Source of the DNA: a virus
Virus record (IMG/VR): IMGVR_UViG_3300032020_000004
Location: 1-58,378 of that record
Strand: one strand, 5' to 3'
DNA: 58,378 nt
The notes beneath the pieces are model-generated. The model did not search any database. It was not told the origin of the DNA and saw nothing but the letters and a program-made list of their open reading frames with translations. Of this stretch, positions 28,389 through 49,912 are shown in pieces; the first letter of the stretch is position 1, and each line of letters opens with the position of its first letter. The position numbers were made by a program, and so were the translations under genes.

Positions 28389-29205
28389 TCACAGTGGGAT
28401 AGAATATCTTGACCTTGCCTGGGGAATTTACTCCGGCTGCGATAACTGGAGAAATGGTATCTGCGGCGGGGGTGGAAAGGATTTTAACTGCTGGGCTATG
28501 CCGATTGTAAAGCGGTTTAAGAGCCACTACCCGAATGGCTTTGACCCGACCTGGTATCCCGAGGCGATGCTGTCTTCGCTGTCTGTAAAGAAGCCCAGCA
28601 TCATTGGCGTTGGCTGGGTAGGTGATATGTTTGGAGATTGGGTTGATCCGGGGCAGAGAATGTCACTGCCCTTGCCTGATGAAATATGGAGGTATGGCAG
28701 TTTTACACTGCAAGGGACACTGAGGCAGGTTTTATTTGGCGTGCTGAATAATTGTCCGCAGCACAGGTTTGTTTTCTTGACGAAGTGCTACTGGAACTTG
28801 AAGAGGTGGTCGCCGTTTCCAAAGAATGCGTGGGTCGGTGTGACGATCACTGATGGCAGTAAGCTGCGTGAGGTGCTGTATGCTTTGGCTGAAATTGAGG
28901 CTGGGCTGATATGGCTGAGCGTGGAGCCAATGCTAGGCCCGGTCGTGCCCCCGGTATGGAGGGCTGAGTGGGATATGGTTGGCTGGGTTACAGTTGGTGC
29001 TGCTACCAGACCGTACCGCCCACCGCAGGTTGATTGGGTAGAGCAGCTAGTCTATGAATGCGTTGCGGCTCGAAAGCCTGTTTTTTTGAAAGATAATCTG
29101 GTTAAGTCCCTGCCGCCCACAGTCCCGTTTTATGTTCCGCCGAAGGAGATACCGGCGAAGGGTAAGATTGAAATGGTTTACCGGCAGGAAATGCCTGACT
29201 GGTAG
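28369..29205 (+). CDS. Phage Gp37/Gp68 (DUF5131) family protein
   Basis: 278 residues. Starts with HSGIEYLDLAWGIYSGCDNW and CWAMPIVKRF, then VGWVGDMFGDWV, FVFLTKCYWNLKRW, WVGVTITDGSK, LIWLSVEPMLGPV and FLKDNL, the characteristic series of the DUF5131 family, which resembles radical-SAM TIM barrels. The usual CxxxCxxC cluster is altered here (GC...IC...NC). Role unknown; these proteins are frequent in phage early regions and have been linked to nucleotide or DNA chemistry only by suggestion. Confidence 0.75.
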   Translation: MKAPRLSHSGIEYLDLAWGIYSGCDNWRNGICGGGGKDFNCWAMPIVKRFKSHYPNGFDPTWYPEAMLSSLSVKKPSIIGVGWVGDMFGDWVDPGQRMSLPLPDEIWRYGSFTLQGTLRQVLFGVLNNCPQHRFVFLTKCYWNLKRWSPFPKNAWVGVTITDGSKLREVLYALAEIEAGLIWLSVEPMLGPVVPPVWRAEWDMVGWVTVGAATRPYRPPQVDWVEQLVYECVAARKPVFLKDNLVKSLPPTVPFYVPPKEIPAKGKIEMVYRQEMPDW

Positions 29206-29910: not shown

Positions 29911-30047
29911 GTCCAGCGGAGTGGCTGTGTGGTAGATGCCATCCGCGACCGGAGGGTTCGACTGATGAGGTCATGCAAAAGATGCGGGAGTCGAGAAGGG
30001 AAGCTGGTCAAGGGGCTCTGTTTACATTGCCGCCTGGGACTGGATAG
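29805..30047 (+). CDS. Zinc-ribbon protein
   Basis: 80 residues. CRNCG and CGRCH (residues about 20-47) make a four-cysteine ribbon; the remainder is hydrophilic. Long overlaps with both neighbours leave the exact coding limits uncertain. Confidence 0.45.
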   Translation: MGGEKEAENQGAVGKPAAPCRNCGSNDWWLRDNGIGPAEWLCGRCHPRPEGSTDEVMQKMRESRREAGQGALFTLPPGTG

Positions 30048-30276
30048 CGGCCTGATAGATTCCAAGACAAACTTGCCCAGGCAAGGCGTCGCCGAAGATA
30101 GAGTTCCTCTGGCCCGGCAGGCGAAGTTCAGGGATGATGGTAGCCTGACTGATGCGCCGGCTCGGAATAGCGAACAGCCCCAGCGGGAGAAGCAAGCCGA
30201 CCTGTTTCAGTATGAACGTGACCAGAAAAATCTCAGGCGCCTCCGGCGAGCTCAGAGGAAGCGGCGAAGCAGTTGA
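29965..30276 (+). CDS. Zinc-ribbon protein with basic tail
   Basis: 103 residues from ATG 29965, which has GGAGGG 8 nt upstream (GTG at 29929 is a weaker alternative). CKRCG and CLHC supply a zinc site in the first 25 residues; the C-terminus is highly basic (LRRLRRAQRKRRSS). A nucleic-acid-binding role is likely. Confidence 0.5.
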   Translation: MRSCKRCGSREGKLVKGLCLHCRLGLDSGLIDSKTNLPRQGVAEDRVPLARQAKFRDDGSLTDAPARNSEQPQREKQADLFQYERDQKNLRRLRRAQRKRRSS

Positions 30277-30355
30277 GATAGTATTGTTAAGCATAGGAGT
30301 GTACGGATAAAGATGCACTGATATAGCAGAGGGTCAGCTGGGGCTGACTTTCTTG

Positions 30356-30371
30356 GTTGTAGTGCTGCAAC
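30356..30371. promoter_or_regulatory. Operator-like palindrome GTTGTAGTGCTGCAAC
   Basis: Differs by one base from the copy at 21812 and likewise starts 40 bp before the -35 box (30396), followed by TGTAAATG. Confidence 0.65.
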
Positions 30372-30395
30372 TGGTGTAAATGCTCCGATACAGGT

Positions 30396-30429
30396 TTGCA
30401 TCATGCCGTATGAGTGTTACGCTTATAAT
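30396..30429 (+). promoter_or_regulatory. Promoter module of the GAGTGTTACGCTTATAAT family
   Basis: TTGCAT (30396-30401), 16-bp spacer, TACGCT (30418-30423), directly followed by TATAAT (30424-30429). The 28 bases from AGTGTTACGC to the AAATAA leader match 21870-21900 almost perfectly. Confidence 0.65.
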
Positions 30430-30461
30430 AGGATAAAAAATAAATGGAAGGAGAAAGAGAG

Positions 30462-30677
30462 ATGGAGGGCTTCTGGGAATTAGCAAAGGAACTGGAGAAA
30501 GAAGCGAATGATGCGCTGAAGTATACTTGGTTGATAAGAGGTATAACAGATGGTCGGGGTGAGGAAATCCGCGCAGAGACAGCCGAAGAAGCCAAGAGGT
30601 TATTTGCTGAGAAGTATCCTGAGAGGACTCGAGGTGGCAATCCGAAGATGACTAGCAACCCGATAAAGGTGAGGTAG
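30462..30677 (+). CDS. Hypothetical protein with PRTase-like small domain
   Basis: 71 residues from ATG 30462, preceded by GGAAGGAGAAAGAG. The segment WLIRGITDGRGEEIRAETAE then AKRLFAEKYPE is similar to small alpha/beta phage proteins that convert an amino-acid string into a beta-hairpin plus helix. No function known. Confidence 0.5.
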   Translation: MEGFWELAKELEKEANDALKYTWLIRGITDGRGEEIRAETAEEAKRLFAEKYPERTRGGNPKMTSNPIKVR

Positions 30678-30680
30678 GAC

Positions 30681-30713
30681 TTGACTTATGTCGTATGAGT
30701 GTTTCAATATAAT
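30681..30713 (+). promoter_or_regulatory. Promoter module of the CGTATGAGTGT family
   Basis: TTGACT (30681-30686), 16-bp spacer ending TATGAGTGT, TTCAAT (30703-30708), overlapping TATAAT (30708-30713). It lies in the short gap before the SWIM/RarA-like gene. Confidence 0.65.
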
Positions 30714-30739
30714 TAAAAGGAAAGGATAGGTGAAAGGAA

Positions 30740-31609
30740 ATGGCAGGGAAAAAGGTAGAGGTTGAAAAAATCCAGGTCATCCCGGTGAGTGAAGGCCGAT
30801 GGGCAGTGCCCTCCACTTCTCAGCCAGGGGTGAGCTATGAGGTGGTAGAGGAAGGTGGCCAGCTGGTCTGCAACTGCATGGCTGGTCTAAATGGAAGGGA
30901 CTGCAAGCACCGGAAGGCGGTGAGGATTGCGATGGAACAGCAAAAGATAAATGGTGAAAGGAGACTGGCAGGCGAGATGGTTCAACCAAAACAGGAAGGC
31001 AAGGCAAAACTGACGAAGCATGGGATTGAGTTTGGGCTGGCAACCTCAGCTCTCCAAAAGCTGATCCGGAGAGGCGATGAGGAGAATGCAATTGGAATGG
31101 CGCTGGAGCTGTATGAGGTTGCCCCTCATTATCTGGCGAAAAGGCTGCTGGTGATAGCATCAGAAGATGTAGGGTTGGCTGATCCACAGACAGTTGGGCT
31201 GGTCAATCAACTGGTGATGGGCTGGACTGAAGGAAAGAGGTTCAGCTGGTATATGTCGCCTCACCAACTAATTCAGGCAGTGATGTTGCTGTGCAGAGCG
31301 CAAAAGTCGACAGAGGTAGAGGATGCCATTACTCTCACAAAAGAGAAGCTGGAGAGGGGCTGGAAGCCGGTAATTCCTCCAGAGGCTGTTGATATGCACA
31401 CTCAACAGGGCAAGGAAATGGCGAAGAAGATGGGGATGAGCTATGATGAGCAGTGCAGGCAGTGGTATGAAGGCAGGCAGAGAGCAGGCATCTTCAGCAA
31501 CAAATATCAGGATGAGCTGAGGAAGCTGAAGCCGGAGTGGTTTCCACAACCGGTTGACGAGAGGAAGGTACGCGAGGACATCGACACGCTGTGGCCGAAG
31601 GAGAAGTAG
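30740..31609 (+). CDS. SWIM zinc finger fused to a RarA/MgsA C-terminal-like domain
   Basis: 289 residues. The SWIM motif CNC-x8-CKH (C44, C46, C55, H57) is followed by a helical domain (about 90-200) whose segments LQKLIRRGDEENAIGMALEL, YLAKRLLVIASEDVGLADPQ and QLIQAVMLLCRAQKS closely follow the C-terminal tetramerisation region of RarA/MgsA/WRNIP1 clamp-loader-like ATPases. The AAA+ ATPase part is absent. It may bind SSB, DNA or host RarA at forks, perhaps as a decoy. Placement among replication genes supports a DNA-metabolic role. Confidence 0.7.
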   Translation: MAGKKVEVEKIQVIPVSEGRWAVPSTSQPGVSYEVVEEGGQLVCNCMAGLNGRDCKHRKAVRIAMEQQKINGERRLAGEMVQPKQEGKAKLTKHGIEFGLATSALQKLIRRGDEENAIGMALELYEVAPHYLAKRLLVIASEDVGLADPQTVGLVNQLVMGWTEGKRFSWYMSPHQLIQAVMLLCRAQKSTEVEDAITLTKEKLERGWKPVIPPEAVDMHTQQGKEMAKKMGMSYDEQCRQWYEGRQRAGIFSNKYQDELRKLKPEWFPQPVDERKVREDIDTLWPKEK

Positions 31610-31819
31610 ATGAGGCAATTAACAGCGAAGGAAATTGAGCAACTGGCCAATCAGCCTGAAGTCAAACGAATAGCAGTAGAGAACTTTTTGATGAGCATGG
31701 GTGATAACGCAGAAGATGCCAGAGCTAACCTTCGGTTTGATAATAGACTGTATCGTTGGAATCATCAGACGTTTAATGCTATCCTTGATGGGATTAGATT
31801 GGCAGAGGAGAGGAGGTGA
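31610..31819 (+). CDS. Hypothetical small protein
   Basis: 69 residues, ATG directly after the previous stop with GGAGAAGTAG. Helical (KEIEQLANQPEVKRIAVENF, then MSMGDNAEDARANL). No family recognised. Confidence 0.5.
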   Translation: MRQLTAKEIEQLANQPEVKRIAVENFLMSMGDNAEDARANLRFDNRLYRWNHQTFNAILDGIRLAEERR

Positions 31820-31837
31820 AAGATGAGGAACTGATAT

Positions 31838-32029
31838 TTGTTTTTGGCCGTAACCAGTACCTTGGTCGCTGTAGGCTTTATGCTAGTGGTGCTGTTTCTG
31901 ACCATGGCCCTGGGAGCTGAGTGGTATGAGCCCAATTTAGCAGTAGCACTTGTTGAGACTGCTTTGTCGGTCGGAGTAATTGGGCTGGGTTTGGCTGGAT
32001 GGGTTGTTCTGATTAAGGGAAGGAGGTGA
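31838..32029 (+). CDS. Small two-helix membrane protein
   Basis: 63 residues from a TTG start. Two hydrophobic helices (residues about 3-25 and 37-57), separated by GAEWYEPN, with a basic end (IKGRR). AGGAGGTG lies 20 nt upstream of the TTG, so the start is uncertain. Could be a holin or inner-membrane effector. Confidence 0.45.
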   Translation: MFLAVTSTLVAVGFMLVVLFLTMALGAEWYEPNLAVALVETALSVGVIGLGLAGWVVLIKGRR

Positions 32030-32239
32030 ATGGTGAAAGAGAAGCCTGCGGATAGGCTGAAAAGACTGAGAGCTAGCAAATCGGATGTGCTTGGGAGGAT
32101 GAAAGCTATTCGCCAGTCAAAAGAAGGTGTTGGTCCTGTAGTCAGGAACGCAGACCACAAGCTGAGTATGCTGAATGATGAAGTCAACAGGATTGGCGCG
32201 AGAATAGTCAAGATAACAGATGCAATAGGAGCTGCGTGA
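32030..32239 (+). CDS. Small coiled-coil protein
   Basis: 69 residues after GGAAGGAGGTGA. Basic and helical with heptad-like spacing (RLKRLRASKSDVLGRMKAIR). No family recognised. Confidence 0.5.
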   Translation: MVKEKPADRLKRLRASKSDVLGRMKAIRQSKEGVGPVVRNADHKLSMLNDEVNRIGARIVKITDAIGAA

Positions 32240-32240
32240 T

Positions 32241-32462
32241 ATGAGGCAGCAGGATGTGTATATTCGAGAGGGGCGGTTTGGACAGAGTAGGGTGCGTGAG
32301 TTCTCTGGCGATGTGCCTTATAATTATTGTGAGTATGCCAGTGACAAGAGATGTATTGTCAATGGCCGGAGTCACTGCCTACTGCCAAAGTGTTACCACG
32401 ATATGACGCAGGCTGAGCTGAATCACCTGAGGAAAGAATGGAAGTCGAGTGTTGACAAATGA
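32241..32462 (+). CDS. Cysteine-rich small protein
   Basis: 73 residues. C-E-Y-A-S-D-K-R-C, then C and CYHDMT give four cysteines and a histidine in 28 residues (NYCEYASDKRC, HCLLPKCYHD), a probable zinc or disulphide knot. A promoter for the downstream small RNA begins within its last codons. Confidence 0.5.
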   Translation: MRQQDVYIREGRFGQSRVREFSGDVPYNYCEYASDKRCIVNGRSHCLLPKCYHDMTQAELNHLRKEWKSSVDK

Positions 32463-32479
32463 AGAAATAGTGATATAAT
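32452..32479 (+). promoter_or_regulatory. Promoter of small RNA unit 1
   Basis: TTGACA (32452-32457), 16-bp spacer, TGA-extended TATAAT (32474-32479). Transcription should start about 32486 and run into the structured unit and terminator, with no ORF in between. Confidence 0.8.
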
Positions 32480-32485
32480 AATGGC

Positions 32486-32569
32486 AATGAGAGTGCCTAG
32501 AGCACCTTGAGCCGATAGAAGCCTGAAGAGCTCGACAGCGGCATTAGTTGTTTATCGGGCTCTTTTTTA
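32486..32569 (+). ncRNA. Small structured RNA unit 1 (paralogue of unit at 47843)
   Basis: Roughly 80 nt between a consensus promoter and an intrinsic terminator. It starts with hairpin GTGC-CTAGA-GCAC (32493-32505), then GAGCCGATAGAAGCCTGAAG (32509-32528), which matches the unit at 47843 at 17 of 20 positions, and then the terminator. Spacing of hairpin, conserved box and terminator is the same in both. No riboswitch class that I know fits; it could be a phage-encoded sRNA or an attenuator for the following gene. Confidence 0.65.
32527..32569 (+). terminator. Intrinsic terminator of RNA unit 1
   Basis: AGAGCTCGA (32527-32535) pairs with TCGGGCTCT (32555-32563), one G-U wobble, followed by a T-rich run to 32569. 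Confidence 0.8.
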
Positions 32570-32606
32570 TACCTTTGTTGGTTGTAGCATTACCACTGGA
32601 GATAAA

Positions 32607-32930
32607 ATGAAGGCGTGGGATAAGGCGTATTTAGCTGGGCTATTGGATGGGGAGGGACATGTACGGTTGTATGGGAATAGGTTATGGGTTCAAATTGGCC
32701 TGAAGAATTGCGATGATGTTTTGAATTATTTGAAGGCTAATTTTGGCGGCAATGTATATGATGGAGGTGCTTGCCGCAGGTGGATAGTTACAGGCAGAGA
32801 AGCTCATCTCTTCTTTAGAGATGTTGAACCATACTTGAGGATTAAGAAGGATAAAGTAGCGGCGTGTTTTCTGCAAATAGGCAGGAGATTGAGATTAAAA
32901 GGCACAATAAGGAGGCGAAGAAAATTATGA
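32607..32930 (+). CDS. LAGLIDADG homing endonuclease (short)
   Basis: 107 residues with TGGAGATAAA before the ATG. Motif YLAGLLDGEGHVRL (residues about 8-21), then FGGNVYDGG, WIVTGREAHLFF and PYLRIKKDKVAACF match its paralogues. The shortest of the four. Its end overlaps the aminotransferase start by 4 nt. Confidence 0.8.
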   Translation: MKAWDKAYLAGLLDGEGHVRLYGNRLWVQIGLKNCDDVLNYLKANFGGNVYDGGACRRWIVTGREAHLFFRDVEPYLRIKKDKVAACFLQIGRRLRLKGTIRRRRKL

Positions 32931-34033
32931 TTCGTGGAACCGATGTCAAGTTTACAGCAGAAGAGCAAGGGGCGATGATGGCTCGGCTACGTGATGTGGT
33001 CGAGTCAAATTTTTTTATGTGGGGTGACCAGCAGGAGGAGTTCCAGATCCACATGGCTGGGATGACCGGTCGTAAGTACGCCATGACCTACAGCCATGTG
33101 ACGCAGGCGACTGAGGCGATATTTGATATACTGTTCAACTGGAAGACGGCGAAGTGTATTGTTGCCTTTCAGGGTAACCAGTTTCCGTCAGTAATGTTTG
33201 CTGCTCAGAGGCAGGCGTACGATATTGAGTGGGTTGATGTCCAGCCTGAGTCGATGGCACCGGCGCTGGTTGATGTGGAGCGGATGTATAGACAGAGGAA
33301 ATTTGATGTTCTGGTCCTGCAGCATACTGGCGGATTTATTACTGATGAGGTAGAGAGCATAGCTGCCTGGTGCAAAGCCAACAAGGTGTTTTTCCTTGAG
33401 GATGCGTCACAGGCGATGGGGACTTTCAAAGAAGGCTGGGCAGCTGGGCATTGGGGCGATATTTCGGTGATCAGTCTGTCAGCCACGAAATTCCTGACTA
33501 CCGGTGGCCAGGGTGGTATTGTGCTGTTTGACGATAAAAGTCTTTGGGATCCACTGTTCCAACGCAAGGTGTATGGGCGTAGCGAGATGTTTCAGAAGGG
33601 TGACTGGGTAACCAAAGGCTGGAACTGCCAGATGACTGAGATGCAGGCAGCGGTTGGTAATGCGCTGTTTCCGTTTCTGGACGGCTGGATTGCTCATCGC
33701 AGAAAGATTGCTGATGTGTATGAGCAGCTGTTTGATGATACGTCTCTGCGACCATGTGGGCACCGCAGCGACCGGCCGAACTGGTATAAGTATCCTGTGA
33801 TGCTGCCGCCTGATGTAGATAGACAGCAGTTCAAGGAGTATTTACTGGCCCAGGGTGTGCAGTGCTCCAGCGAGATCTATTCTCAGCCAACTTACTCGAT
33901 GGGTTCGTTCGGTGGTGAGTTCAGCGATGTAAGTTTGCCTGGCTCAGAGAAGTTCTCCCGGCATCATGTTTGCCTGCCGATGCACAATGCTATGTCTATG
34001 AAAGATGCTGAGCCTGTTGGTAAAGCACTGTAA
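32927..34033 (+). CDS. DegT/DnrJ/EryC1/StrS-type PLP aminotransferase
   Basis: 368 residues from ATG 32927 (AAGGAGG 11 nt upstream). Family marks: FFMWGDQQEEFQ, EDASQAMGTFKEG (the Asp that contacts pyridine N), SLSATKFLTTGGQGG with the Schiff-base Lys, and WNCQMTEMQAAVG. These enzymes normally make amino sugars on nucleotide carriers. In phages they have also been linked to base hypermodification or capsule changes. It stands near a PP-loop enzyme, ParB-like protein and DNA methyltransferase, making a DNA-modification role worth testing. Confidence 0.85.
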   Translation: MIRGTDVKFTAEEQGAMMARLRDVVESNFFMWGDQQEEFQIHMAGMTGRKYAMTYSHVTQATEAIFDILFNWKTAKCIVAFQGNQFPSVMFAAQRQAYDIEWVDVQPESMAPALVDVERMYRQRKFDVLVLQHTGGFITDEVESIAAWCKANKVFFLEDASQAMGTFKEGWAAGHWGDISVISLSATKFLTTGGQGGIVLFDDKSLWDPLFQRKVYGRSEMFQKGDWVTKGWNCQMTEMQAAVGNALFPFLDGWIAHRRKIADVYEQLFDDTSLRPCGHRSDRPNWYKYPVMLPPDVDRQQFKEYLLAQGVQCSSEIYSQPTYSMGSFGGEFSDVSLPGSEKFSRHHVCLPMHNAMSMKDAEPVGKAL

Positions 34034-34060
34034 TGCACCGGTGAGGGGATAAAAAGGGAA

Positions 34061-34348
34061 GTGAATATTAAATCACATGGTAGTGGGGAGGTGGTTGATG
34101 TGGTGGAGGAGAAGGAAGGAAGGCATCCTGGTGATAAGGGTTGCGAGTTCTCTGACAGCTGTTTAATGTGCCCTTTCCCAGTGTGTAAAGATGATGTTGG
34201 TATAGGTGAGTTTATGCGGTTTCTCAAAGGTCAGGAGGTTCGCGAGTTATGGGAACAAGGAAAGGCAGTAAGAGAGATAGCAAAAATATTGCAGGTAAGC
34301 GAGAGAACAGTCCAGCGGCGATTGCACCGATCAGGGTTGTCCCGATAG
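34061..34348 (+). CDS. Cysteine-cluster HTH regulator
   Basis: 95 residues, GTG start after AAAGGGAA. CEFSDSCLMCPFPVC (residues 28-42) is a compact four-cysteine cluster, followed by a resolvase-type helix-turn-helix (GKAVREIAKILQVSERTVQR, residues about 67-86). A metal-sensing or metal-stabilised transcription factor is inferred. It overlaps the ParB-like gene by 100 nt. Confidence 0.6.
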   Translation: MNIKSHGSGEVVDVVEEKEGRHPGDKGCEFSDSCLMCPFPVCKDDVGIGEFMRFLKGQEVRELWEQGKAVREIAKILQVSERTVQRRLHRSGLSR

Positions 34349-35025
34349 ACAGCGTGCAACCTAATATTTATAATCCAAATGTTGAGGACCCGGACACGTT
34401 CAATGTGCTGGTTGAGAACATCAAGCAGTATGGCTTTACCGGTGCCATTGAGGTAGCTCCAAATGAGGATGGGCAGACGTTCATTATTGTTGGCGGCGAG
34501 CATCGGTGGAAGGCGGCAAAGCTAGCCGGGCTGAAGGAAGTGCCAGTGTCTATAGTTCCCTGGGATGAAGATATGCAGAAGATCCAGAGCATCAAGCTGA
34601 ATGTTATCCGTGGGAAGCTGGACCCGCACAAGTTTACCAAGCTGTTTATGGAGCTGGAGAAGAAGTATGGCCGCGACCCACTCCGCAAGCTGATGGGTAT
34701 GGGGGCGAAGGATGCCATGTTCCGCCAGCTGATGAAGGATGTCAAGAAGAGCCTGCCTCAGAGTGTGCAGGATGAGATAGAGAAGCGGGCAGATAAGATT
34801 CGGAATGTGGAGGACCTAGCGGCCGTAGTCCAGAGCCTGTATGCTCAGTATGGCAACACGCTGCAATATGGATTTGTGTTTTTCCGATTTGCAGGGAAAG
34901 AGCATCTGATGGTAAAATTAACTGAAGATGGACTGAAGCGTTTGCGAAAAATAACTCAGCAATGCTCTGAGACTGGTCAAAACATAAATGAGAGGATTGA
35001 AGAGGTGATAGTTGCCACGCGGTAA
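34249..35025 (+). CDS. ParB-fold protein (IbrB-like)
   Basis: 258 residues. ParB/Srx core: VVPIDSVQPNIYNPN, LVENIKQYGFTGAIEV, IIVGGEHRWKAAKLAG with GEHR replacing GERR, then a long helical C-terminal part. Stand-alone proteins of this type often accompany PP-loop PAPS-reductase-family proteins (as in the IbrA/IbrB pair); such an enzyme is at 38451. The C-terminal segment CSETGQNINERIEEV resembles the end of the HNH protein that follows. The start inside the previous gene is uncertain. Confidence 0.7.
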   Translation: MGTRKGSKRDSKNIAGKRENSPAAIAPIRVVPIDSVQPNIYNPNVEDPDTFNVLVENIKQYGFTGAIEVAPNEDGQTFIIVGGEHRWKAAKLAGLKEVPVSIVPWDEDMQKIQSIKLNVIRGKLDPHKFTKLFMELEKKYGRDPLRKLMGMGAKDAMFRQLMKDVKKSLPQSVQDEIEKRADKIRNVEDLAAVVQSLYAQYGNTLQYGFVFFRFAGKEHLMVKLTEDGLKRLRKITQQCSETGQNINERIEEVIVATR

Positions 35026-35599
35026 GAAGATAATAGATAAACTGCCAGTAGAGGAGATAAGAGCTTTATATTGGCAGGAGCAGAAGTCTACTTATGAGAT
35101 ATCACTAATCTTTGGCTGTTGCTATAGTACGATTCGTGATTTGCTGTTCAAAAATGGCGGCTTGCGTAGGAAGACAGACGCAGCCCGGTTGGCGATAGCA
35201 CAGGGTAGACGAAAGCAGAAGAATCTTCTCAAAGGGTCGGATTCGCCAAGTTGGAAAGGTGGCCGTTATGAAAGTAAAGAAGGCTATGTATTCATATATC
35301 TTCCAAATTATCATAGGGCTATGTCCAATGGTTATGTTCGGGAACATATCTTAGTTTGGGAAGAGGCGCATGGGGAAATATTGCCAAAGGGATGGGAAGT
35401 CCATCATCTCAATGGGATTAAAAATGATAATGCCCCAGACAATCTATGTGCTCTTAGGAAAAAGAAGCATCAGCTATGGATACCGGCTTTGCAAGAGCGT
35501 ATCCGCACATTAGAAAGAGCTCTAAAGGATATAGCTGCTCACTGTGCTGAAGAGGGTAAGGATATAAATGCCGAGATGGTTAAGAGACTTGTTGGCTAG
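35012..35599 (+). CDS. HNH homing endonuclease with N-terminal HTH
   Basis: 195 residues from a TTG start that overlaps the ParB-like gene by 14 nt. An HTH (EQKSTYEISLIFGCCYSTIR, residues about 22-41) precedes the WKGGRYESKEGYVFIYLP segment, HRAMSNGYVREHILVWEE, and EVHHLNGIKNDNAPDNL with the catalytic HH...N. The tail CAEEGKDINAEMVKRL is similar to the end of the ParB-like protein, suggesting the gene carried or copied that terminus on insertion. Confidence 0.85.
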   Translation: MPRGKKIIDKLPVEEIRALYWQEQKSTYEISLIFGCCYSTIRDLLFKNGGLRRKTDAARLAIAQGRRKQKNLLKGSDSPSWKGGRYESKEGYVFIYLPNYHRAMSNGYVREHILVWEEAHGEILPKGWEVHHLNGIKNDNAPDNLCALRKKKHQLWIPALQERIRTLERALKDIAAHCAEEGKDINAEMVKRLVG

Positions 35600-35720
35600 G
35601 TTTTTTCAGAAGCGGAGGCAGTTTGTTAGTTACGGCGGCTTCCCGAGGAACAGTAGAGACATAAGGTTACATAGACGGAAGAGATGGATATTTTTCGGAA
35701 AGGAGAGTGTAGATAGATGA
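35568..35720 (+). CDS. Possible small arginine-rich ORF
   Basis: 50 residues (starts MPRWLRDLLARFFQKRR), overlapping the HNH gene by 32 nt and the next gene by 4 nt (ATGA). The ribosome binding site is weak. It fills an otherwise empty 117-base gap, so it may be real, but codon evidence is slight. Confidence 0.3.
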   Translation: MPRWLRDLLARFFQKRRQFVSYGGFPRNSRDIRLHRRKRWIFFGKESVDR

Positions 35721-36241
35721 CTGTAACGATTGCTGCATTGCAAGAGGCGGTAGCAAAAGAACTGGGGGTGGAGAAGGTAGGCTTTGATGCTAAGTCAGGC
35801 AAGTTCATGTGCCGGTGTGGGCGGTGTGGCCAGATGGAAGTATCAGGTGGTACAGTGCAGGGGTTATATGAACAGCACCAGCTAGAGAGGTTGAAGAAAG
35901 TGCATGATAACAAAGTTTTGAAGAGAGAAGGAGTGATTGCCCGAGGTACGAATTTCAAGCAGCCACCGGAAGAAGTGCTGAAGTGGCTGTTTGAGGCGAA
36001 GGTAGATATCAGCGATGTGTACCGGCTCAGGGTGCTGAAGAGAAATGGTGGTGACAGTGCTGAGGTAGGGTTGTGGTTGTTCTGCCGTAACGATAAGGGT
36101 TACAGGTATGTAGGTCCTGATGGCAAGCCTGCTCGCAAGTCAGTGAAGATGATTTGCAAAGAACTGCCCAAGTTCATTGAGGATGAATATGGGTATCCCA
36201 TGGAGCAATATGGTGATGAAACGGAGCTACCAGGGGAGTAA
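35717..36241 (+). CDS. Hypothetical zinc-binding protein
   Basis: 174 residues with GGAAAGGAGAG upstream. CRCGRCG (residues about 32-38) is a compact cysteine cluster; the rest is a mixed domain (VGLWLFCRNDKGYRYVGPDG) with acidic tail. No family recognised. Confidence 0.5.
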   Translation: MTVTIAALQEAVAKELGVEKVGFDAKSGKFMCRCGRCGQMEVSGGTVQGLYEQHQLERLKKVHDNKVLKREGVIARGTNFKQPPEEVLKWLFEAKVDISDVYRLRVLKRNGGDSAEVGLWLFCRNDKGYRYVGPDGKPARKSVKMICKELPKFIEDEYGYPMEQYGDETELPGE

Positions 36242-36252
36242 AGGGGGGTAAT

Positions 36253-36744
36253 ATGCTGATAAACTGGTTTCTGAATAGCAAGACTGGTATGGCCGAGTGG
36301 AGGATTACCACTGCTGAATGCAATTTTTACTTTCAGCAGCCGCTTGACAGCTTTTTTAAGCTGGTAGATGGGCTGCACGAAGCGTGCTGCAGTGTAAAGG
36401 CTATGATGCAGGATGGGCTTGACTCAAAAGCAGCTATTGCGGAGTGGCAGAGGATGATTCGAGAGGAACAGGAGAGTGAAGCTAAAGAGAAGTCGCAGCT
36501 TAGCTGTGTACTGAAGGACGATAAAGGTAATGTTGTTGGTGAGACTGACAGGCTGTATGAAGTATCCGGCGATGAGGTTATGTTTGATGAGGTGTTGGTG
36601 AAAGGCAGTATCGGTGATAAGGTCTGGTATAATGGCCAGTCTTTGGCTGTGGTAAGCATTGCCAGCCAAATTGGTTTGCTGGTTGATGGTAGAGGCGCTC
36701 GGGGACCGGTGATGCACGGTGTTCGATGTAAGGTGGTGAAATGA
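36253..36744 (+). CDS. Hypothetical protein
   Basis: 163 residues after AAAGGGGGGTAAT. A helical middle (AAIAEWQRMIREEQESEAKE) is followed by a beta-barrel-like C-terminal part (SIGDKVWYNGQSLAVVSIAS). No known motif. Overlaps the next gene by 4 nt. Confidence 0.5.
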   Translation: MLINWFLNSKTGMAEWRITTAECNFYFQQPLDSFFKLVDGLHEACCSVKAMMQDGLDSKAAIAEWQRMIREEQESEAKEKSQLSCVLKDDKGNVVGETDRLYEVSGDEVMFDEVLVKGSIGDKVWYNGQSLAVVSIASQIGLLVDGRGARGPVMHGVRCKVVK

Positions 36745-37106
36745 TGGAACAGACATGGGCTGACAAGTTGTCATTTTGGTTTGAAAGGTCGCATTACTGG
36801 CGGGGGCAGCAGGTGAATCCGTATTACTGGTACTGGCATGATTATCGGTGCCGGCTAGAGCCCTGGACTTACGAATGGCGAAGACATGTGAAGAAGTGGT
36901 GGTGGGTTGTTCTATTGAAATTAGTGCTAGGCGGAGGTGCTCTTATCTGGTTGTTGCTATTCCCATGCAGCCATGCCGCGACCTGGGTAAAGGTTATTGT
37001 CATGGTGGCAGCCATAATCCTTGTGGGTTTCTATGCCTGGCTGCTTTTGCATCTGGGGTGCTTTGCCCTGCGGTTCTATAATAAAATTAAGGGAAGGAGA
37101 AGTTAA
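36741..37106 (+). CDS. Two-TM membrane protein, possible lysis partner
   Basis: 121 residues. A tryptophan/tyrosine-rich first half (VNPYYWYWHDYRCRLEPWTY) precedes two membrane helices (WVVLLKLVLGGGALIWLLLF, about 50-69; VKVIVMVAAIILVGFYAWLL, about 78-97). Only the LAGLIDADG gene separates it from the papain-like protease gene at 37550, so the two could once have been adjacent and work together at the envelope. Confidence 0.5.
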   Translation: MMEQTWADKLSFWFERSHYWRGQQVNPYYWYWHDYRCRLEPWTYEWRRHVKKWWWVVLLKLVLGGGALIWLLLFPCSHAATWVKVIVMVAAIILVGFYAWLLLHLGCFALRFYNKIKGRRS

Positions 37107-37553
37107 ATGGCCTTGAAAAAGAGATTAGATGCAATAACATTAGCTTATGTGGCAGGCATTGTTGATGGAGAAGGCTGTATCAGGATTGATAAAGCTAAGG
37201 GGCGTACAAGTAAAAGAGGATATTGTTATGTTCTTGTACTAACAGTCAGCAACACCAACGAATGGCTTTGTCAACATCTGAAAAATTTATTTGGCGGATG
37301 CACTTTTGCCTGTTACCATCAGAAACCGCGAAAAGTCTGTTGGGAATGGAGGGTTGCTGCATTAAAAGCTAGGGCAGTATTAGAACAGATTGCTCCTTAT
37401 CTAACCATTAAGAAGCCACAGGCTGAATTAGCACTTCAATTTCAGAAACGCCGAAGGCATAGGGGTGGGAGGATTGGAATGACTGAAGCAGAATTAGCAG
37501 TAGATGAAGCTGAATTTATTATTATGAAAGCTCTCAAAACAGGAGGTGGATGA
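37107..37553 (+). CDS. LAGLIDADG homing endonuclease
   Basis: 148 residues starting at the base after the previous stop, with GGAAGGAGAAG upstream. YVAGIVDGEGCIRID (residues about 13-27), SNTNEWLCQHLKNLFGG, and PYLTIKKPQAELALQFQK correspond closely to the protein at 775, of which it is the best full-length relative here and which lacks the triplication. Overlaps the protease gene by 4 nt. Confidence 0.85.
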   Translation: MALKKRLDAITLAYVAGIVDGEGCIRIDKAKGRTSKRGYCYVLVLTVSNTNEWLCQHLKNLFGGCTFACYHQKPRKVCWEWRVAALKARAVLEQIAPYLTIKKPQAELALQFQKRRRHRGGRIGMTEAELAVDEAEFIIMKALKTGGG

Positions 37554-38416
37554 TGAATCAATTTATTGGGGGATGGTTAAAAGATAAGTATGACCGAAGA
37601 GATTTTTTACGTAAGGCGACTTTCAAGGAGATTCCGCCAGTTGTTGTACTCGAGGAGTATCTGCCGGAGGTCAGGGTTCAGGGAAATGTTGGCTCCTGTG
37701 TCGGGTTTGGTATAGGCGCTAACCTAGTAGCCAGGGCGAAAAGGTTTGGTGCTTATACTGAATGGTTCAGCCCGACCTGGATTTACAACGGCGCCAGGTA
37801 TCTTGAGGGCACGCTGACGCAAGATAATGGCTGCTACCCCAGAGATGCTCTGCACTGGCTATATCAGAAGGGGTGTCTTTTGGAGCAGTTCTGGCTGTAT
37901 GACCCGGAGGAACTGGATCTCATGGCACCGCCTTCGCATTTGGAACCAGAGGCGGCTAAGTATCCTTTACTGTCCTACTATCGTGTCGTGGATGGAGTCA
38001 CTGGTATATGTGAGGCACTGGCTGATGGGCATTATGTCTCTATCGGCACGCCGTGGTTTGATAAGTGGATAAGCCCTAAAGATGACAGACTGGCCGAGGT
38101 GAGTATCCGTGATTCGGTAGCTGGCGGACATGAGACTTGTCTTTGGGGCTATGATAAACAGGCACAAGTATTCTTTGGCGTAAATAGTTGGGGCACTGAG
38201 TGGGGTGATAGAGGATTGTTTACGATGCCTTTCTCTGCCTTTGATGTGTTCAAGCAGAAGGGTGGGTATGATGCTCACTATATTGGCTTGGAGGCAGCTC
38301 CGGAGGAGACTGAGGAAAAGGATAGCTCTTGTCCATTTGCCAAAGGATATGCTGGGCTGGGCAATCTAATTGCTAGGCTCCTTGGGAGTCATTCGAGGGT
38401 AAAGGCAGTAGGATGA
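37550..38416 (+). CDS. Papain-like (C1A family) cysteine protease
   Basis: 288 residues. The oxyanion Gln and catalytic Cys are in VQGNVGSCVGFG (residues about 42-53), the catalytic His in GGHETCLWGYD (about 188-198) and the Asn in FGVNSWGTEWGD (about 205-216): the full C1 triad. No signal peptide or prodomain is obvious. As no peptidoglycan hydrolase is found, this enzyme could act in lysis by cutting envelope or S-layer protein, or in modifying host proteins; both are inference. Confidence 0.85.
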   Translation: MMNQFIGGWLKDKYDRRDFLRKATFKEIPPVVVLEEYLPEVRVQGNVGSCVGFGIGANLVARAKRFGAYTEWFSPTWIYNGARYLEGTLTQDNGCYPRDALHWLYQKGCLLEQFWLYDPEELDLMAPPSHLEPEAAKYPLLSYYRVVDGVTGICEALADGHYVSIGTPWFDKWISPKDDRLAEVSIRDSVAGGHETCLWGYDKQAQVFFGVNSWGTEWGDRGLFTMPFSAFDVFKQKGGYDAHYIGLEAAPEETEEKDSSCPFAKGYAGLGNLIARLLGSHSRVKAVG

Positions 38417-38442
38417 CCTTTGAGGAGATTGTGGGGAGACTA
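38408..38442 (+). repeat. Gene-junction repeat, copy a
   Basis: GTAGGATGACCTTTGAGGAG (38408 on) to GGGGAGACTA matches copies at 39204-39257 and 39460-39508 with one or two changes. It contains an ATG (38414) opening a 13-residue frame MTFEEIVGRLPKL whose stop overlaps the PP-loop gene start (ATGA). Confidence 0.85.
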
Positions 38443-38450
38443 CCAAAGCT

Positions 38451-39215
38451 ATGAACTTATTAAGAGAAGTTGCAGAAAAAGTAAATAGACCATTCTCAGT
38501 TAAGTTGGCTGAGACTAGGGAAGTTATTAAACACCACTTTGAGGAGTTTGGCAATAAGGTGGCAGTTGCTTTTTCTGGCGGTAAGGATAGCGAGGTTGTT
38601 CTTTGGCTATGTCTCCAAATCAATCCGAATGTGCCAGTAGTATTTAATAATACGGGCGTTGAATATCCTGAGACAGTTAATTTTGTGGCGAAGTTAGCTG
38701 AGGAGTGGAACTTAAATCTAATCGTTACTCATCCCGAAAAAAGTTTCTGGGAATGTATTGAACAATATGGATTTGCCAAGGGTAAGACAATGAAAGGAAA
38801 GGGCAATGCCCGATGTTGTTATTGGCTTAAAGAAAAGCCGATGCTTTTGGCGATACGCCAGAATGATTGGCTTGGTTATTTTACGGGAGAAACAGCAAGT
38901 GAAAACCGCAATCGGATGTTTTGGGCTAAAGAGAAGGGTATGTGCTCACACCTTAAAAATGAGGATGTGTGTAAAATAAAACCGATATTGTGGTGGACTG
39001 AAGCGGAAGTTTGGGACTTTATTCACAAAGAGGGCTTACCACTCAATGAGGCTTACATCAAGGGAGCAAAAAGGGTTGGCTGTTTGCCTTGCACAGCTTA
39101 TAGCAAGTGGGAACAAGAGATGCAGAGACTTAACCCAAAGCTCTATGAAATTATTAAGTTGAGAAAGGATAATCAATATGTCATGCGACTTCCAATGGCT
39201 GTTCCCAATCCGTAA
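38451..39215 (+). CDS. PP-loop ATPase of the PAPS reductase family (IbrA-like)
   Basis: 254 residues. PP-loop SGGKDS at 42-47 in VAVAFSGGKDSEVVLWL, then VVFNNTGVEYPETV, a YWLKEKPM segment, and GCLPCTAYSKWEQE with a CxxC. This is the adenylating alpha-hydrolase fold of PAPS reductases and DndC/IbrA proteins. Together with the ParB-fold protein at 34249 it forms a pair known from phages and plasmids, sometimes suspected in DNA sulphur modification or protection. The last codons (VPNP) lie in the junction repeat. Confidence 0.85.
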   Translation: MNLLREVAEKVNRPFSVKLAETREVIKHHFEEFGNKVAVAFSGGKDSEVVLWLCLQINPNVPVVFNNTGVEYPETVNFVAKLAEEWNLNLIVTHPEKSFWECIEQYGFAKGKTMKGKGNARCCYWLKEKPMLLAIRQNDWLGYFTGETASENRNRMFWAKEKGMCSHLKNEDVCKIKPILWWTEAEVWDFIHKEGLPLNEAYIKGAKRVGCLPCTAYSKWEQEMQRLNPKLYEIIKLRKDNQYVMRLPMAVPNP

Positions 39216-39257
39216 TGAGACTGTAGGATGACCCTTGAGGAGATTATAGGGAGACTA
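39204..39257 (+). repeat. Gene-junction repeat, copy b
   Basis: CCCAATCCGTAATGAGACTG (39204-39223) followed by TAGGATGACCCTTGAGGAGA and on to GGGAGACTA. It ends the PP-loop gene and opens a short frame MTLEEIIGRLNE from 39228. Confidence 0.9.
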
Positions 39258-39274
39258 AATGAAAGGAGGAGAAG

Positions 39275-39448
39275 ATGGAGATACCACTTGAGGTGATTAA
39301 ATGGCTAAAAAACAATGCCTATGCTGTAAAGGAGAAAGACTACTGGTTTTTATCTGACTTCCCGCCTGATATGGTTCCCGAAAAACTTGAAATTCCAATG
39401 AGAAGCAGGATGTGGAAGTTAATAGTTAAGATAACTACCCTGGAATAA
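39275..39448 (+). CDS. Small hypothetical protein in the cassette array
   Basis: 57 residues, AAGGAGGAGAAG before the ATG. Helical start (LEVIKWLKNNAYAVKEKDYW) and MVPEKLEIPMRSRMW at the end. It lies between junction repeats b and c. Confidence 0.55.
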   Translation: MEIPLEVIKWLKNNAYAVKEKDYWFLSDFPPDMVPEKLEIPMRSRMWKLIVKITTLE

Positions 39449-39459
39449 GGCAGGAGATG

Positions 39460-39508
39460 CCCAATCCGTAATGAGACTGTAGGATGACCCTTGAGGAGAT
39501 TGTGGGGA
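39460..39508 (+). repeat. Gene-junction repeat, copy c
   Basis: Identical to copy b from CCCAATCCGT through CCCTTGAGGAGATT, then GTGGGGA as in copy a. Opens the short frame MTLEEIVGKG from 39484. Confidence 0.9.
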
Positions 39509-39520
39509 AAGGAGAAGACA

Positions 39521-39694
39521 ATGATATGCACTAGATGCGGAAGGGAATTAGCCGAATGGCACTTTGGGGAAGAGCATTATTGTCAAATGTGTTGGGAGGC
39601 TCATTGCAGCGAAGAGTGGTGGCGATTAAATGTTTGGCAGAATGGAATCTTCCCAATCCGTAATGAGAGTATAGAATATGAACCCATATTTTGA
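39521..39694 (+). CDS. Zinc-ribbon protein in the cassette array
   Basis: 57 residues from ATG 39521 with GGAAAGGAGAAG upstream. CTRCGRELAEW and CQMCWEAHC supply the zinc ligands. The 3' end runs through junction repeat d in a different frame and overlaps the methyltransferase start by 17 nt. Confidence 0.6.
   Translation: MICTRCGRELAEWHFGEEHYCQMCWEAHCSEEWWRLNVWQNGIFPIRNESIEYEPIF
39652..39675 (+). repeat. Gene-junction repeat, copy d (partial)
   Basis: CCCAATCCGTAATGAGAGTA matches the first half of copies b and c with one change, and ends just before the methyltransferase ATG. Confidence 0.8.
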
Positions 39695-40757
39695 AGATAA
39701 TCTGGTAAAAATCTATAACGGCGATGCACGCAATATGAGCAAATTGCTAGATAATTCCGTTCAATGCGTGGTGACTTCTCCACCATACTGGGGTTTAAGA
39801 AAGTATTCTGGCTTACCTGATTTGATATGGGGGAATAAGGATTGTGAGCATAGGTGGGGGAATATAATCCCCAATCCGATGTGTAAATCAGGTAAGCACA
39901 GTTCAAAAAGCATTGTCGCCGAAGGCACTAAAATAGCTGAGCACGAGATTAGGATAAATAGCAATCAAGGCTCGTTCTGTTCTCTCTGCGGTGCGTGGAA
40001 AGGTCAGTTAGGGCTTGAACCTACACCCGAACTCTATCTTGACCATCTTGTTGAGATATGCCGTGAGATAAAAAGAGTAATGAGAAAGGACGGCGTATTT
40101 TTCCTTAATTGCGGGGATAGCTATATGAGCCACGGTGGGGACAGGTCTAAAATTGGTGGTTTTCAAGCTAATCCTAATCAAGACAGATTGGAAGCAGAAA
40201 ACTCTATGTCTATGAAGAAGAAAACAAATGATATTCTAAAAGATAAAGACCTTTGCTTAATACCGTTCCGTCTAGCTATTGCCCTACAGAGTGATGGCTG
40301 GTGGGTAAGGTCGATTATTATCTGGTCAAAGCCCAATCCTATGCCAGAGAGCGTTACCGATAGACCCACAGAGAGCCACGAATATATCTTACTTTTAACA
40401 AAATCGGCTCGCTATTACTGGGATGCGGAGGCGGTGCGAGAACCCTATACCGAACCACTGAATCGCTGGGGTGGCCCCGAATTCCGAGATAGTAGCCATA
40501 ATATTAGAAGTGTCTGGGAATTTCCCACACAACCTTACCCCGAAGCCCACTTTGCCGTATTCCCAGAGAAGTTACCAGAGATATGTATTAAGGCAGCCAG
40601 TAAAGTAGGTGACCTAATCCTTGACCCCTTTGTAGGGAGTGGGACTACTCTATGGGTAGCAAAGAAATTGGGTAGGCGGGCTGTGGGGTATGAGTTATCA
40701 GAAGAATACTGTCAGCTTGCCCTTGAAAGAAATAGGCAGATGGCTATGGAAGTATAA
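39678..40757 (+). CDS. DNA methyltransferase, beta class (TSPPY)
   Basis: 359 residues. Catalytic motif TSPPY at 33-37 and SAM-binding DPFVGSGTT at 316-324, in that order, with VGYELSEEYCQLALER after it, as in beta-class amino-methyltransferases; TSPPY favours N4-cytosine, with N6-adenine also possible. An internal CSLCG and CEHRW segment may bind zinc. No cognate restriction enzyme is visible. It probably protects phage DNA from host restriction. Confidence 0.85.
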   Translation: MNPYFEDNLVKIYNGDARNMSKLLDNSVQCVVTSPPYWGLRKYSGLPDLIWGNKDCEHRWGNIIPNPMCKSGKHSSKSIVAEGTKIAEHEIRINSNQGSFCSLCGAWKGQLGLEPTPELYLDHLVEICREIKRVMRKDGVFFLNCGDSYMSHGGDRSKIGGFQANPNQDRLEAENSMSMKKKTNDILKDKDLCLIPFRLAIALQSDGWWVRSIIIWSKPNPMPESVTDRPTESHEYILLLTKSARYYWDAEAVREPYTEPLNRWGGPEFRDSSHNIRSVWEFPTQPYPEAHFAVFPEKLPEICIKAASKVGDLILDPFVGSGTTLWVAKKLGRRAVGYELSEEYCQLALERNRQMAMEV

Positions 40758-40760
40758 AAT

Positions 40761-40913
40761 ATGATATGTCCCTATTTTACAAAAACTAAAATTAAGTTAC
40801 GCAAGAAACACACTATTGCGGATGAGTGCCAAGTCTGCCCATTAAGGGACGAAACAGGAGACTGTATAAAAGACATACACGAAGATGCTAGTGAAATGGC
40901 TTTGAAATGCTAG
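40761..40913 (+). CDS. Small cysteine-rich protein
   Basis: 50 residues. C3, then CQVC (24-27) and C35 in GDC, and a terminal Cys. ATG follows the methyltransferase stop after 3 nt. Metal binding likely; function unknown. Confidence 0.5.
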   Translation: MICPYFTKTKIKLRKKHTIADECQVCPLRDETGDCIKDIHEDASEMALKC

Positions 40914-40938
40914 ATTAGGGTTGTAATTCGACAGCGAA

Positions 40939-41493
40939 ATGAAAAAATCGAGTAAAGCTAAAACAGATAAAAGCACAGTGCGAAAGTACCGACACTTCGA
41001 TGAATTGCGGGATTGTCTGGCAAGTGGATGGTCTGTGCCGGCAGTGCATGAATATTTGATTAAGCGCTATGGTCCGGATGGGATACCAACTGCTACAGCT
41101 ATAATGAGATGGCGAGATAAACACTTGGAGCCAGCGGCCCGTGTGATACCGCACCAGGTCATACAGAGCAAGCTCAAAGGAGTGGCGTTCAGAGTTGATG
41201 TCATTGGGCACCTGAGCCGGCTGATTGCTCTGTGTGAGGACAGGGTAGCTCGAGGCATTGCTAAGGAGGATGAGTTTATGGGGATGCCGCTGGCAGTCAA
41301 CGATGGTGTGATACAAGTGTACCTGCAGGCGATAATGGATTATTTGAAGGTAGCACAGGACTTAAACTTGCTGCCAAGCCCGCCACCGCCGCTGTTTGAT
41401 TTCAGGTCGCAGACCCTGGTGGTTTCTCCGGAGACTTTAATCAGGCTGAAGGAGACAGTGAGGGAGATTAAGGCGATGGAAATTGCAAACTAG
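40939..41493 (+). CDS. Putative small terminase subunit
   Basis: 184 residues. Basic N-terminus, an HTH-like segment (LASGWSVPAVHEYLIKRYGP, residues about 27-46; TATAIMRWRDKHLEP), a helical middle and a C-terminal SPETLIRLKETVREIKAME. Length, DNA-binding N-terminus and position shortly before terL fit TerS. Confidence 0.6.
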   Translation: MKKSSKAKTDKSTVRKYRHFDELRDCLASGWSVPAVHEYLIKRYGPDGIPTATAIMRWRDKHLEPAARVIPHQVIQSKLKGVAFRVDVIGHLSRLIALCEDRVARGIAKEDEFMGMPLAVNDGVIQVYLQAIMDYLKVAQDLNLLPSPPPPLFDFRSQTLVVSPETLIRLKETVREIKAMEIAN

Positions 41494-41506
41494 CATAAGG
41501 TGGCAA

Positions 41507-41671
41507 ATGGCTAATACAGTGTGTTGGTGTGTTAAATGCAAAAAGGAGGTAGTCCCAGTGCGGGGTGAGTTCCAGCATCCTCATTTGGGGAGTCAGAGTT
41601 GCTTGATTTGCCCGGATTGTCACAGCATGGTGATACCGAAGGATGAAACCAGACCGAAGGAGCCTGCATGA
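41507..41671 (+). CDS. Zinc-ribbon protein
   Basis: 54 residues from ATG 41507 (AAGGTGG upstream). CVKCKKE and CPDCHS give four zinc ligands. Its stop overlaps the next mini-ORF (ATGA at 41668). Confidence 0.6.
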   Translation: MANTVCWCVKCKKEVVPVRGEFQHPHLGSQSCLICPDCHSMVIPKDETRPKEPA

Positions 41672-41745
41672 AGCCGCCACTGACCGCTAGTAAGTATGAT
41701 GACTACCAGACGCCGCCGAAGGCGTTAAAGGTTATACCAGAATGA
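41668..41745 (+). CDS. Mini-ORF in a coupled chain before terL
   Basis: 25 residues (MKPPLTASKYDDYQTPPKAL then KVIPE). Starts by ATGA overlap with the previous gene and ends by ATGA overlap with the next. Confidence 0.45.
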   Translation: MKPPLTASKYDDYQTPPKALKVIPE

Positions 41746-41816
41746 TTACAAACCCGGATGGGACAAAGATGATGTGGTTGTGGTTTGATGATTCCCGAGG
41801 AGAGGCCAGCCGATGA
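41742..41816 (+). CDS. Mini-ORF overlapping the terL start
   Basis: 24 residues (MITNPDGTKMMWLWFDDSRG then EASR). ATGA overlaps at both ends connect it to the upstream mini-ORF and to terL; GAGGAGAGG for terL lies inside it. Confidence 0.45.
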   Translation: MITNPDGTKMMWLWFDDSRGEASR

Positions 41817-44209: not shown

Positions 44210-44272
44210 TGGACAAAGGGGCATTGACGCAAAGTAGTTTGCAGGTGAAAATGAATAAAGAGGAGGTGGGTG

Positions 44273-46678: not shown

Positions 46679-47396
46679 AAGAGGTCGTGAAATTGGGATT
46701 AAGTCTGGCGATTTATATGTTAAGGCATCCTGTATCAATTGTGGCCTAGAGAGATGGGTTAAGAAGGCGGATTTCGATGCTGGCAAACAGCAGTATTGCA
46801 AAAAGTGCTATCTAGCCCCGAAGATAGAAGGTGACCGCAAACGGATATTGGCTGAGCATCCTGATATAAAGGATGTTAAGCATAGTTCTGAATTGGGTAA
46901 ATCTGGGGATTGTTTATATGTTTTGGTCGAATGTCCTGAGTGCGGTAAACCAAAATGGATGAGGAAATCTGCTTATGAACGTGGTATAAACCTGTTATGT
47001 CGCTCTTGTGGTGGCCGTCAGGGTATGAATAAACGAGGCAGATACGGCTGTAAAAAGCATCAAGGCTATGTGATGGTTACTGTGCATCCAAATGACCCGA
47101 TGCGAGTTATGGCTCATAAGAGTGGCTGGGTGTTGGAGCACCGATTGATCATGGCTCGACATCTTGGCAGGCCTTTGCTGAAAGGTGAGCAAGTGCACCA
47201 TAGACCGGATGTAGCCAAAGACGACAACCGAATAGAAGGACTTTACCTAATGCCTGACCTTGCCGCCCATGCTAGGCTACTTCCTTGTGCAAATTGTGAG
47301 CTGAAAAAAGAGATCCGTTTACTGCGCTGGCAGATTAAGGAACAGAATGAGCAAATTAAGAATTTGACTTCTCTTTTGATGCTGAGGGAGGAATAA
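46668..47396 (+). CDS. HNH homing endonuclease with two zinc modules
   Basis: 242 residues from ATG 46668 (CAGGAGAGTGGG upstream), overlapping the portal gene by 11 nt. Two CxxC modules (CINCGLERWVKKADF...CKKC and CPECGKPKWMRKSAY...CRSC, residues about 22-110) precede GYVMVTVHPND, VLEHRLIMARHLGRPL, and EQVHHRPDVAKDDNR with the catalytic HH and N, and a coiled-coil end. Same design as 16438, with the zinc module duplicated. Confidence 0.85.
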   Translation: MLLKRGREIGIKSGDLYVKASCINCGLERWVKKADFDAGKQQYCKKCYLAPKIEGDRKRILAEHPDIKDVKHSSELGKSGDCLYVLVECPECGKPKWMRKSAYERGINLLCRSCGGRQGMNKRGRYGCKKHQGYVMVTVHPNDPMRVMAHKSGWVLEHRLIMARHLGRPLLKGEQVHHRPDVAKDDNRIEGLYLMPDLAAHARLLPCANCELKKEIRLLRWQIKEQNEQIKNLTSLLMLREE

Positions 47397-47399
47397 GAT

Positions 47400-47588: not shown

Positions 47589-47589
47589 G

Positions 47590-47811: not shown

Positions 47812-47836
47812 CAAGAAATCACGGAGGTGTTATAGT
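47808..47836 (+). promoter_or_regulatory. Promoter of small RNA unit 2
   Basis: TTGACA (47808-47813), 17-bp spacer, TATAGT (47831-47836). The start point is expected near 47843, 40 nt before the terminator stem. Confidence 0.8.
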
Positions 47837-47842
47837 AGTACT

Positions 47843-49894: not shown

Positions 49895-49912
49895 CAGGAA
49901 GAGGTGAAATAG

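Follow-up and report, generated by a model that had tools for sequence, protein, structure and literature searches.

Paired promoter-leader-terminator units of an IMG/VR phage as candidate targets of Com-type antitermination

Introduction

ANTAR target RNAs consist of two hexaloops with A1 and G4, and lambda boxB is a pentaloop of the GNRNA type. To our knowledge, what is known of Com comes from a single phage gene pair and a single SELEX experiment.

The accessible text of PMC6483171 gives the SELEX motif of the Com zinc finger as NGAGNNCC(N)2-3GAGNNCCNN, places recognition at CC(N)2-3GAG inside a loop closed by C-G, names Haemophilus sputorum as the source of the protein tested, and describes the role of Com in phage Mu as one in translation, not termination. 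Layouts with regulated read-through are described for the lambda Q and AlpA operons (PMC6606751, PMC7969949), and phage HK022 put comprises two ~70-nt RNAs, each with two stem-loops (PMC9378689).

Here we analyse a 58.4-kb IMG/VR phage record, called the window throughout, that carries two related promoter-proximal units, each ending in an intrinsic terminator. With moderate confidence, we propose that each unit serves in cis as the 5' leader of a phage operon and would be controlled by Com-type, protein-dependent antitermination.

Leader architecture in the window

The first-pass annotation had described a series of promoter, hairpin, box and terminator that occurs twice and contains no ORF, and had read the two copies as diverged members of one selected RNA family. 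Both claims held: the promoters are near-perfect sigma-70 sequences (12/12 and 11/12), no ORF of at least 60 aa lies inside either unit, folding agrees with the earlier description of hairpin 1 and the terminators, and Rfam has no match. The units and their parts are as follows.

32452-32568, + strand: unit 1 (promoter, hairpin 1, box, intrinsic terminator)
32452-32479, + strand: unit 1 promoter, TTGACA-16-TATAAT with TG extension, 12/12
32491-32506, + strand: unit 1 Com box GAGTGCCTAGAGCACC, 10/10 positions of the bipartite Com SELEX motif
32493-32505, + strand: unit 1 hairpin 1, GTGC-CTAGA-GCAC
32509-32528, + strand: unit 1 20-nt box, its 3' end entering the terminator 5' arm
32526-32568, + strand: unit 1 intrinsic terminator, -18.6 kcal/mol, U-tract 32563-32568
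47808-47922, + strand: unit 2 (promoter, hairpin 1, box, intrinsic terminator)
47808-47836, + strand: unit 2 promoter, TTGACA-17-TATAGT, 11/12
47855-47865, + strand: unit 2 hairpin 1 GGCTAGAAGCC, a degenerate Com box containing CTAGA, 7/10
47868-47887, + strand: unit 2 20-nt box, hairpin AGCC-GATAGA-GGCT
47884-47922, + strand: unit 2 intrinsic terminator, -23.9 kcal/mol

The unit 1 promoter scores best within 30000-49900 and recurs at the equivalent place, with equal spacing, in the related phage G001; the TTGACA of unit 2 also holds its position in relatives. Promoter-like sequences of at least 11/12 in that interval are confined to the two units and a site inside parB (34346), which has no leader and was rejected. 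The unit 2 terminator is the strongest + strand terminator found across the whole window. The pre-terminator part of 14 leaders folds barely better than dinucleotide shuffles (mean z -0.79), and hairpin stability alone is weak evidence. Rfam searches at gathering and relaxed thresholds gave nothing relevant, with only tRNAs in relatives, and unit 2 weakly resembles STnc250 below threshold (E 0.006, 23.8 bits; cut-off 42). The earlier statement that the units match no known family thus stands for Rfam and falls for unit 1, which carries the SELEX-defined Com target motif.

The window contains exactly two copies of the box, and the reported identity of 17/20 between them is correct. A degenerate box pattern with up to three mismatches had two matches in the window versus 0.05 expected, and no shuffle had two; an exact search of IMG/VR with the 20-nt box found no match. 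The box had also been taken for the constant element, which proved wrong: only its core (CCGATAGAGG, AGAGGY) persists in relatives, and it is the promoter, hairpin 1 and terminator that are kept. The sequence of the box is lost from the G001 counterpart of unit 1, and the unit 2 box hairpin is retained in L093 as ACC-GATAGA-GGT. In window-like leaders, AGAGGY-NNN-GARCCC extends into the terminator arm, and in L184 a second exact Com box likewise enters that arm. The 20-nt box may itself be a second Com box in degenerate form, the least secure part of our reading. A search with promoter plus AGCCGATAGA gave eight matches, mostly chance by eye, and was discarded.

The genes next to the units include the following.

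34249-35025, + strand: ParB-like gene, whose G001 counterpart lies directly behind the unit 1 ortholog
47400-47588, + strand: Com-like two-CxxC zinc-ribbon protein of 62 aa, PF10122 at 23.2 bits (cut-off 22.9), phrog_6417 'translational regulator'
48023-49894, + strand: prohead protease (Mu-like gpI), PF10123 and phrog_976 head maturation protease, first gene after unit 2

Unit 1 is followed by genes for a LAGLIDADG protein and an aminotransferase-like protein and by parB. Unit 2 is bordered upstream by a small zinc-ribbon gene pair and downstream by the prohead protease gene, with the major capsid gene next.

Other features of the window were also recorded. A second promoter family (21850, 23961, 26251, 30395, 30680) has a repeated operator-like element, GTTGTAG/CGTATGAGTGTTACG, adjoining TATAAT, and the palindrome GTTGTAGYGCTGCAAC is scattered (for example at 13875, 30356 and 51293). 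Within a LAGLIDADG-type ORF, a 42-nt unit is repeated perfectly in tandem, three times in all (1062-1188), and the large terminase ORF (41813-44209) has an intein-like insertion, with intein-like sequence in its G001 homologue as well. A perfect 127-bp direct repeat (1-127 and 57670-57796) lies near the record ends with different continuations, and may be terminal redundancy, a duplicated gene start or an assembly effect.

Com motif and Com-like protein

Read as A-GAG-TG-CC-TA-GAG-CA-CC-TT, unit 1 has all ten fixed positions of the Com motif. It fits the bipartite form GAGNNCC(N)2-3GAGNNCC and also presents CC(N)2-3GAG in a C-G-closed loop on a 3-4 bp stem; unit 2 fits neither, and its hairpin, with 7/10 of the bipartite motif, is not significant alone, such matches being frequent in shuffles. 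The full motif occurs once in the window, versus 0.13 on average in shuffled windows. Because the hairpins were catalogued before the motif came to attention, the match is not a product of fitting. The G001 ortholog of unit 1 (GAGTGCCAAGAGCACC) matches at 10/10 and the G001 late leader at 9/10. Together with the match itself, this suggests that unit 1 is a target of the Com family, with binding as a prediction. Its exact Com box lies outside the terminator arm, and only degenerate copies further downstream overlap the arm.

A C-G-closed CC(N)2-3GAG hairpin is present in 6/14 leaders against 0.31 expected from dinucleotide shuffles, a count in which unit 1 and its G001 ortholog, like the leaders of related phages in general, are not independent. 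Hairpin 1 stems differ in sequence (unit 1, GUGC/GCAC; unit 2, GGCU/AGCC; L010, GGGC/GCCC; L105, GCGGC/GCCGC; L119, GUUC/GGAC). Covariation was assessed by eye on hand-aligned hairpins because MAFFT leader alignments misalign hairpin 1; in leader alignment A5, RNAalifold found nearly invariant stems, which therefore offer little evidence of covariation. The loops, CUAGA and CAAGA, do not match lambda boxB, and the unit 1 loop is a pentaloop, not an ANTAR hexaloop.

The genome with unit 1 also encodes a Com-family protein, by a marginal score, and the protein of the sister phage L093 reaches 24.8 bits. The spacer between the CxxC pairs is longer in the window protein than in Mu Com. The product of 47400-47588, encoded just upstream of unit 2, is a candidate and probably the trans-acting factor for the leaders.

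Conservation in related phages

Phage G001, the closest relative, whose capsid protein is 74% identical to that of the window, has both units in synteny (21604 and 36771, window orientation). Its unit 1 ortholog keeps the promoter, ATGAGAGTGCC-A-AGAGCACC and the terminator, and ends ~30 nt upstream of parB. A single-sequence search with the protease gave no match. Among 43 protease loci, some of them near-duplicates, 30 have a terminator directly before the gene with TTGACA upstream, 7 have TTGACA (48-77 nt upstream of the gene) without a terminator, and 6 have neither. Relative to the upstream gene, the TTGACA is read as LD codons or as LT codons, spans a stop or is intergenic, and is thus conserved as DNA.

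Each unit places a promoter and then an intrinsic terminator before a gene, with no promoter between, as in attenuators and antitermination leaders. In L011, L093, L103, L105, L106, L119 and L139, only 7-28 nt separate the end of the terminator from the protease start codon, which leaves no room for a promoter before an essential gene, so the protease/capsid operon can be transcribed only by read-through. That conclusion comes from the sequence and is no proof of regulation, but such a layout is ordinarily a sign of regulated read-through, as for lambda Q and AlpA.

Operons controlled by Q and AlpA have the equal arrangement of promoter, short leader and terminator (PMC6606751; PMC7969949), and an antiterminator of that type would load at promoter DNA and carry the polymerase past the terminator, with the RNA hairpins playing a minor part. 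The fairly constant sequence around the -10 element of window-like leaders (AGTGNTA/GGTGTTA) agrees with such loading. We nevertheless consider it unlikely, since it leaves the exact Com motif of unit 1, the recurrent CNNGA loops and the overlap of box and terminator unexplained, and comparison of the promoter spacers by eye revealed no conserved direct repeat.

The first-pass annotation had implied stand-alone RNAs, and the units do have their own promoter, their own terminator and no ORF; unit 2 also has its faint likeness to STnc250. A pair of trans-acting small RNAs is nonetheless improbable in our view: the STnc250 match is far under the gathering score, the units hold their place in front of the same genes while their sequence changes, and in several relatives the essential gene has no space upstream for another promoter. 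The units are better read as leaders fixed before the parB/packaging and capsid operons.

Two further readings are very improbable. An RNA that itself binds the polymerase, like HK022 put, would agree with two related promoter-proximal RNAs per phage and with small hairpins, but the window hairpins, at 11-16 nt, are not the long put stems (~70-nt RNA with two long stem-loops; PMC9378689), a terminator follows the leader directly, and the Com association would be unexplained. A leader-peptide or metabolite attenuator can draw on a possible peptide, MRVPRAP..., that begins a few nucleotides past the expected start site in unit 1 and its G001 ortholog, with a synonymous change as the sole difference there, but late leaders (unit 2, L010, L093) do not encode it, several lack any ATG, and neither a ribosome site nor a riboswitch match was found.

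A more distant group of phages (group B: L014, L107-L136; protease ~35% identical) has leaders with two hairpins, GGCGG-CUUGA-CCGCC and GUUGG-CCCGA/CUAGA-CCAAC, the second of which overlaps the terminator 5' arm. The leader is always preceded immediately by a small zinc-type gene (CxC/CxxC...RRHGxxH; for example in L121 and L133), and another CxxC gene sits between terminator and protease. Pfam and PHROGs searches did not recognize the adjoining zinc protein, and hhalign linked it weakly to the Com-like protein of the window (66%). In L107, L117, L120, L129, L130 and L132, ARAGORN placed a tRNA-Met(CAT) in the hairpin 1 loop of the leader before the protease (GGCGGC-[tRNA]-GACCGCC); in L124, a nested tRNA was found by Rfam only.

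Com boxes across phages and Bacillota

IMG/VR was scanned for a promoter followed by the Com motif (TTGACA-N15-18-TATANT-N5-30-GAGNNCCNNGAGNNCC). The scan matched 17 contigs versus ~3 by chance, a base-frequency estimate. In 13 of them, from 7 lineages, a terminator follows immediately and then a start codon, as in the window leaders; the remaining 4 look like chance. Genes after these leaders are mostly scaffold-, protease-, portal- or terminase-like, as read from sequence. In L182, L183, L186, L188 and L190, the second GAGNNCC doubles as the 5' arm of the terminator and, judged by eye, the box hairpin and the terminator would therefore be mutually exclusive; overlap is clear in these five and in the bacterial boxes described below, and degenerate in units 1 and 2.

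Textbook Com-like genes were present in three scan lineages, just upstream of the leader in L184/L194 and L190 and after the portal-like gene in L183. The records of the Com-box phages L182, L186, L188 and L191 had no PF10122 match, and a search of annotated phages with Com-like proteins found no named example. The phage of L185 has a second Com box (L249; phage G034, minus strand, 28489-28504) on a ribosome site, not a terminator; its 3' half can base-pair with the ribosome-binding site of the following gene, so that this version of the switch looks translational and mom-like.

An independent test used PF10122 matches in 398 genomes of one bacterial phylum, Bacillota (confident, E 5e-7 or better). 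Exact Com boxes lie near com at 11/13 confident loci versus 0/17 doubtful ones. The stricter box GAGRGCCNNNGAGCCCC is present in 11/13 com-bearing genomes versus 0/12 others (Fisher 2e-5), and its reversed pattern in none; because GAGRGCCNNNGAGCCCC was shaped on the boxes of those genomes, the informative parts are the 0/12 and the reversed control. Among distinct boxes, 25/28 make up the 5' arm in a terminator-like hairpin that carries a T-rich tail, a few of them weak. In Bacillota, com is part of host operons, behind a sigma-54 activator and ahead of genes for thiolase, CoA-transferase or acyl-CoA dehydrogenase. Across L196-L208 and L226-L248, Com-box terminators often occur on either side of com, possibly an unrecognised regulon. 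The pattern of promoter plus Com box was absent from 70 genomes of one family.

Discussion

The architecture, position and conservation of the leaders, the Com motif of unit 1 and the overlap of boxes with terminator arms in relatives and bacteria can be read from the DNA, and they point to a Com-dependent switch. We infer that host RNA polymerase would initiate at the sigma-70 promoter, transcribe a leader of ~80 nt and stop at the intrinsic terminator by default. The GAG..CC / CNNGA hairpins of the nascent leader would be bound by a small zinc-finger protein of the Com type, probably the product of 47400-47588; with the GAG..CC strand occupied, the terminator could not form (or the polymerase would be marked), and read-through would follow. 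At unit 1, read-through would give transcription of parB and the packaging genes, and at unit 2, later, of the protease-capsid operon. As the Com-like gene lies in the 3' part of the parB-packaging segment, control at unit 1 would provide positive feedback.

On balance, we think that Com-family zinc fingers are widespread RNA-binding antiterminators and that Com boxes in terminator arms control late operons of many phages and acyl-CoA/thiolase operons of Bacillota. If so, the frequent flanking of com by Com boxes would be feedback, and Mu com-mom would be a special, translational case. For orphan Com genes of phages and of clostridial metabolism, this proposal predicts a mechanism, a regulon and a target site readable from the genome. 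It also offers a simple account of when late genes are expressed across a large group of uncultured phages.

The closest described system is Mu Com/mom (Com zinc finger, PF10122). Unit 1 has the same motif, GAGNNCC-NN-GAGNNCC, with CC(N)2-3GAG in a C-G-closed loop, and the window likewise has a Com-like gene in the same phage, adjoining unit 2. Mu Com acts on translation by melting a hairpin that covers the mom start codon, whereas in the window the box adjoins an intrinsic terminator hairpin downstream of a promoter; unlike the Mu target, the box of unit 2 is degenerate. Lambda pR'-tR' with Q, and the AlpA operons, share with the window a strong promoter, a short leader, a terminator, late or lysis genes and, as proposed here, read-through control, but Q and AlpA are recruited by promoter DNA, whereas the conserved part of the window leaders is a motif of the nascent RNA. 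HK022 put is alike in having two related promoter-proximal hairpin RNAs in one phage and differs in size and structure, without direct terminator overlap or a partner protein. The two-hairpin layout of group B resembles ANTAR targets. In ANTAR and LicT/BglG leaders, a protein-bound hairpin excludes the terminator, as we propose for Com leaders; the loops of the window are CNNGA pentaloops, not the ANTAR hexaloop pattern, and the protein would belong to another family.
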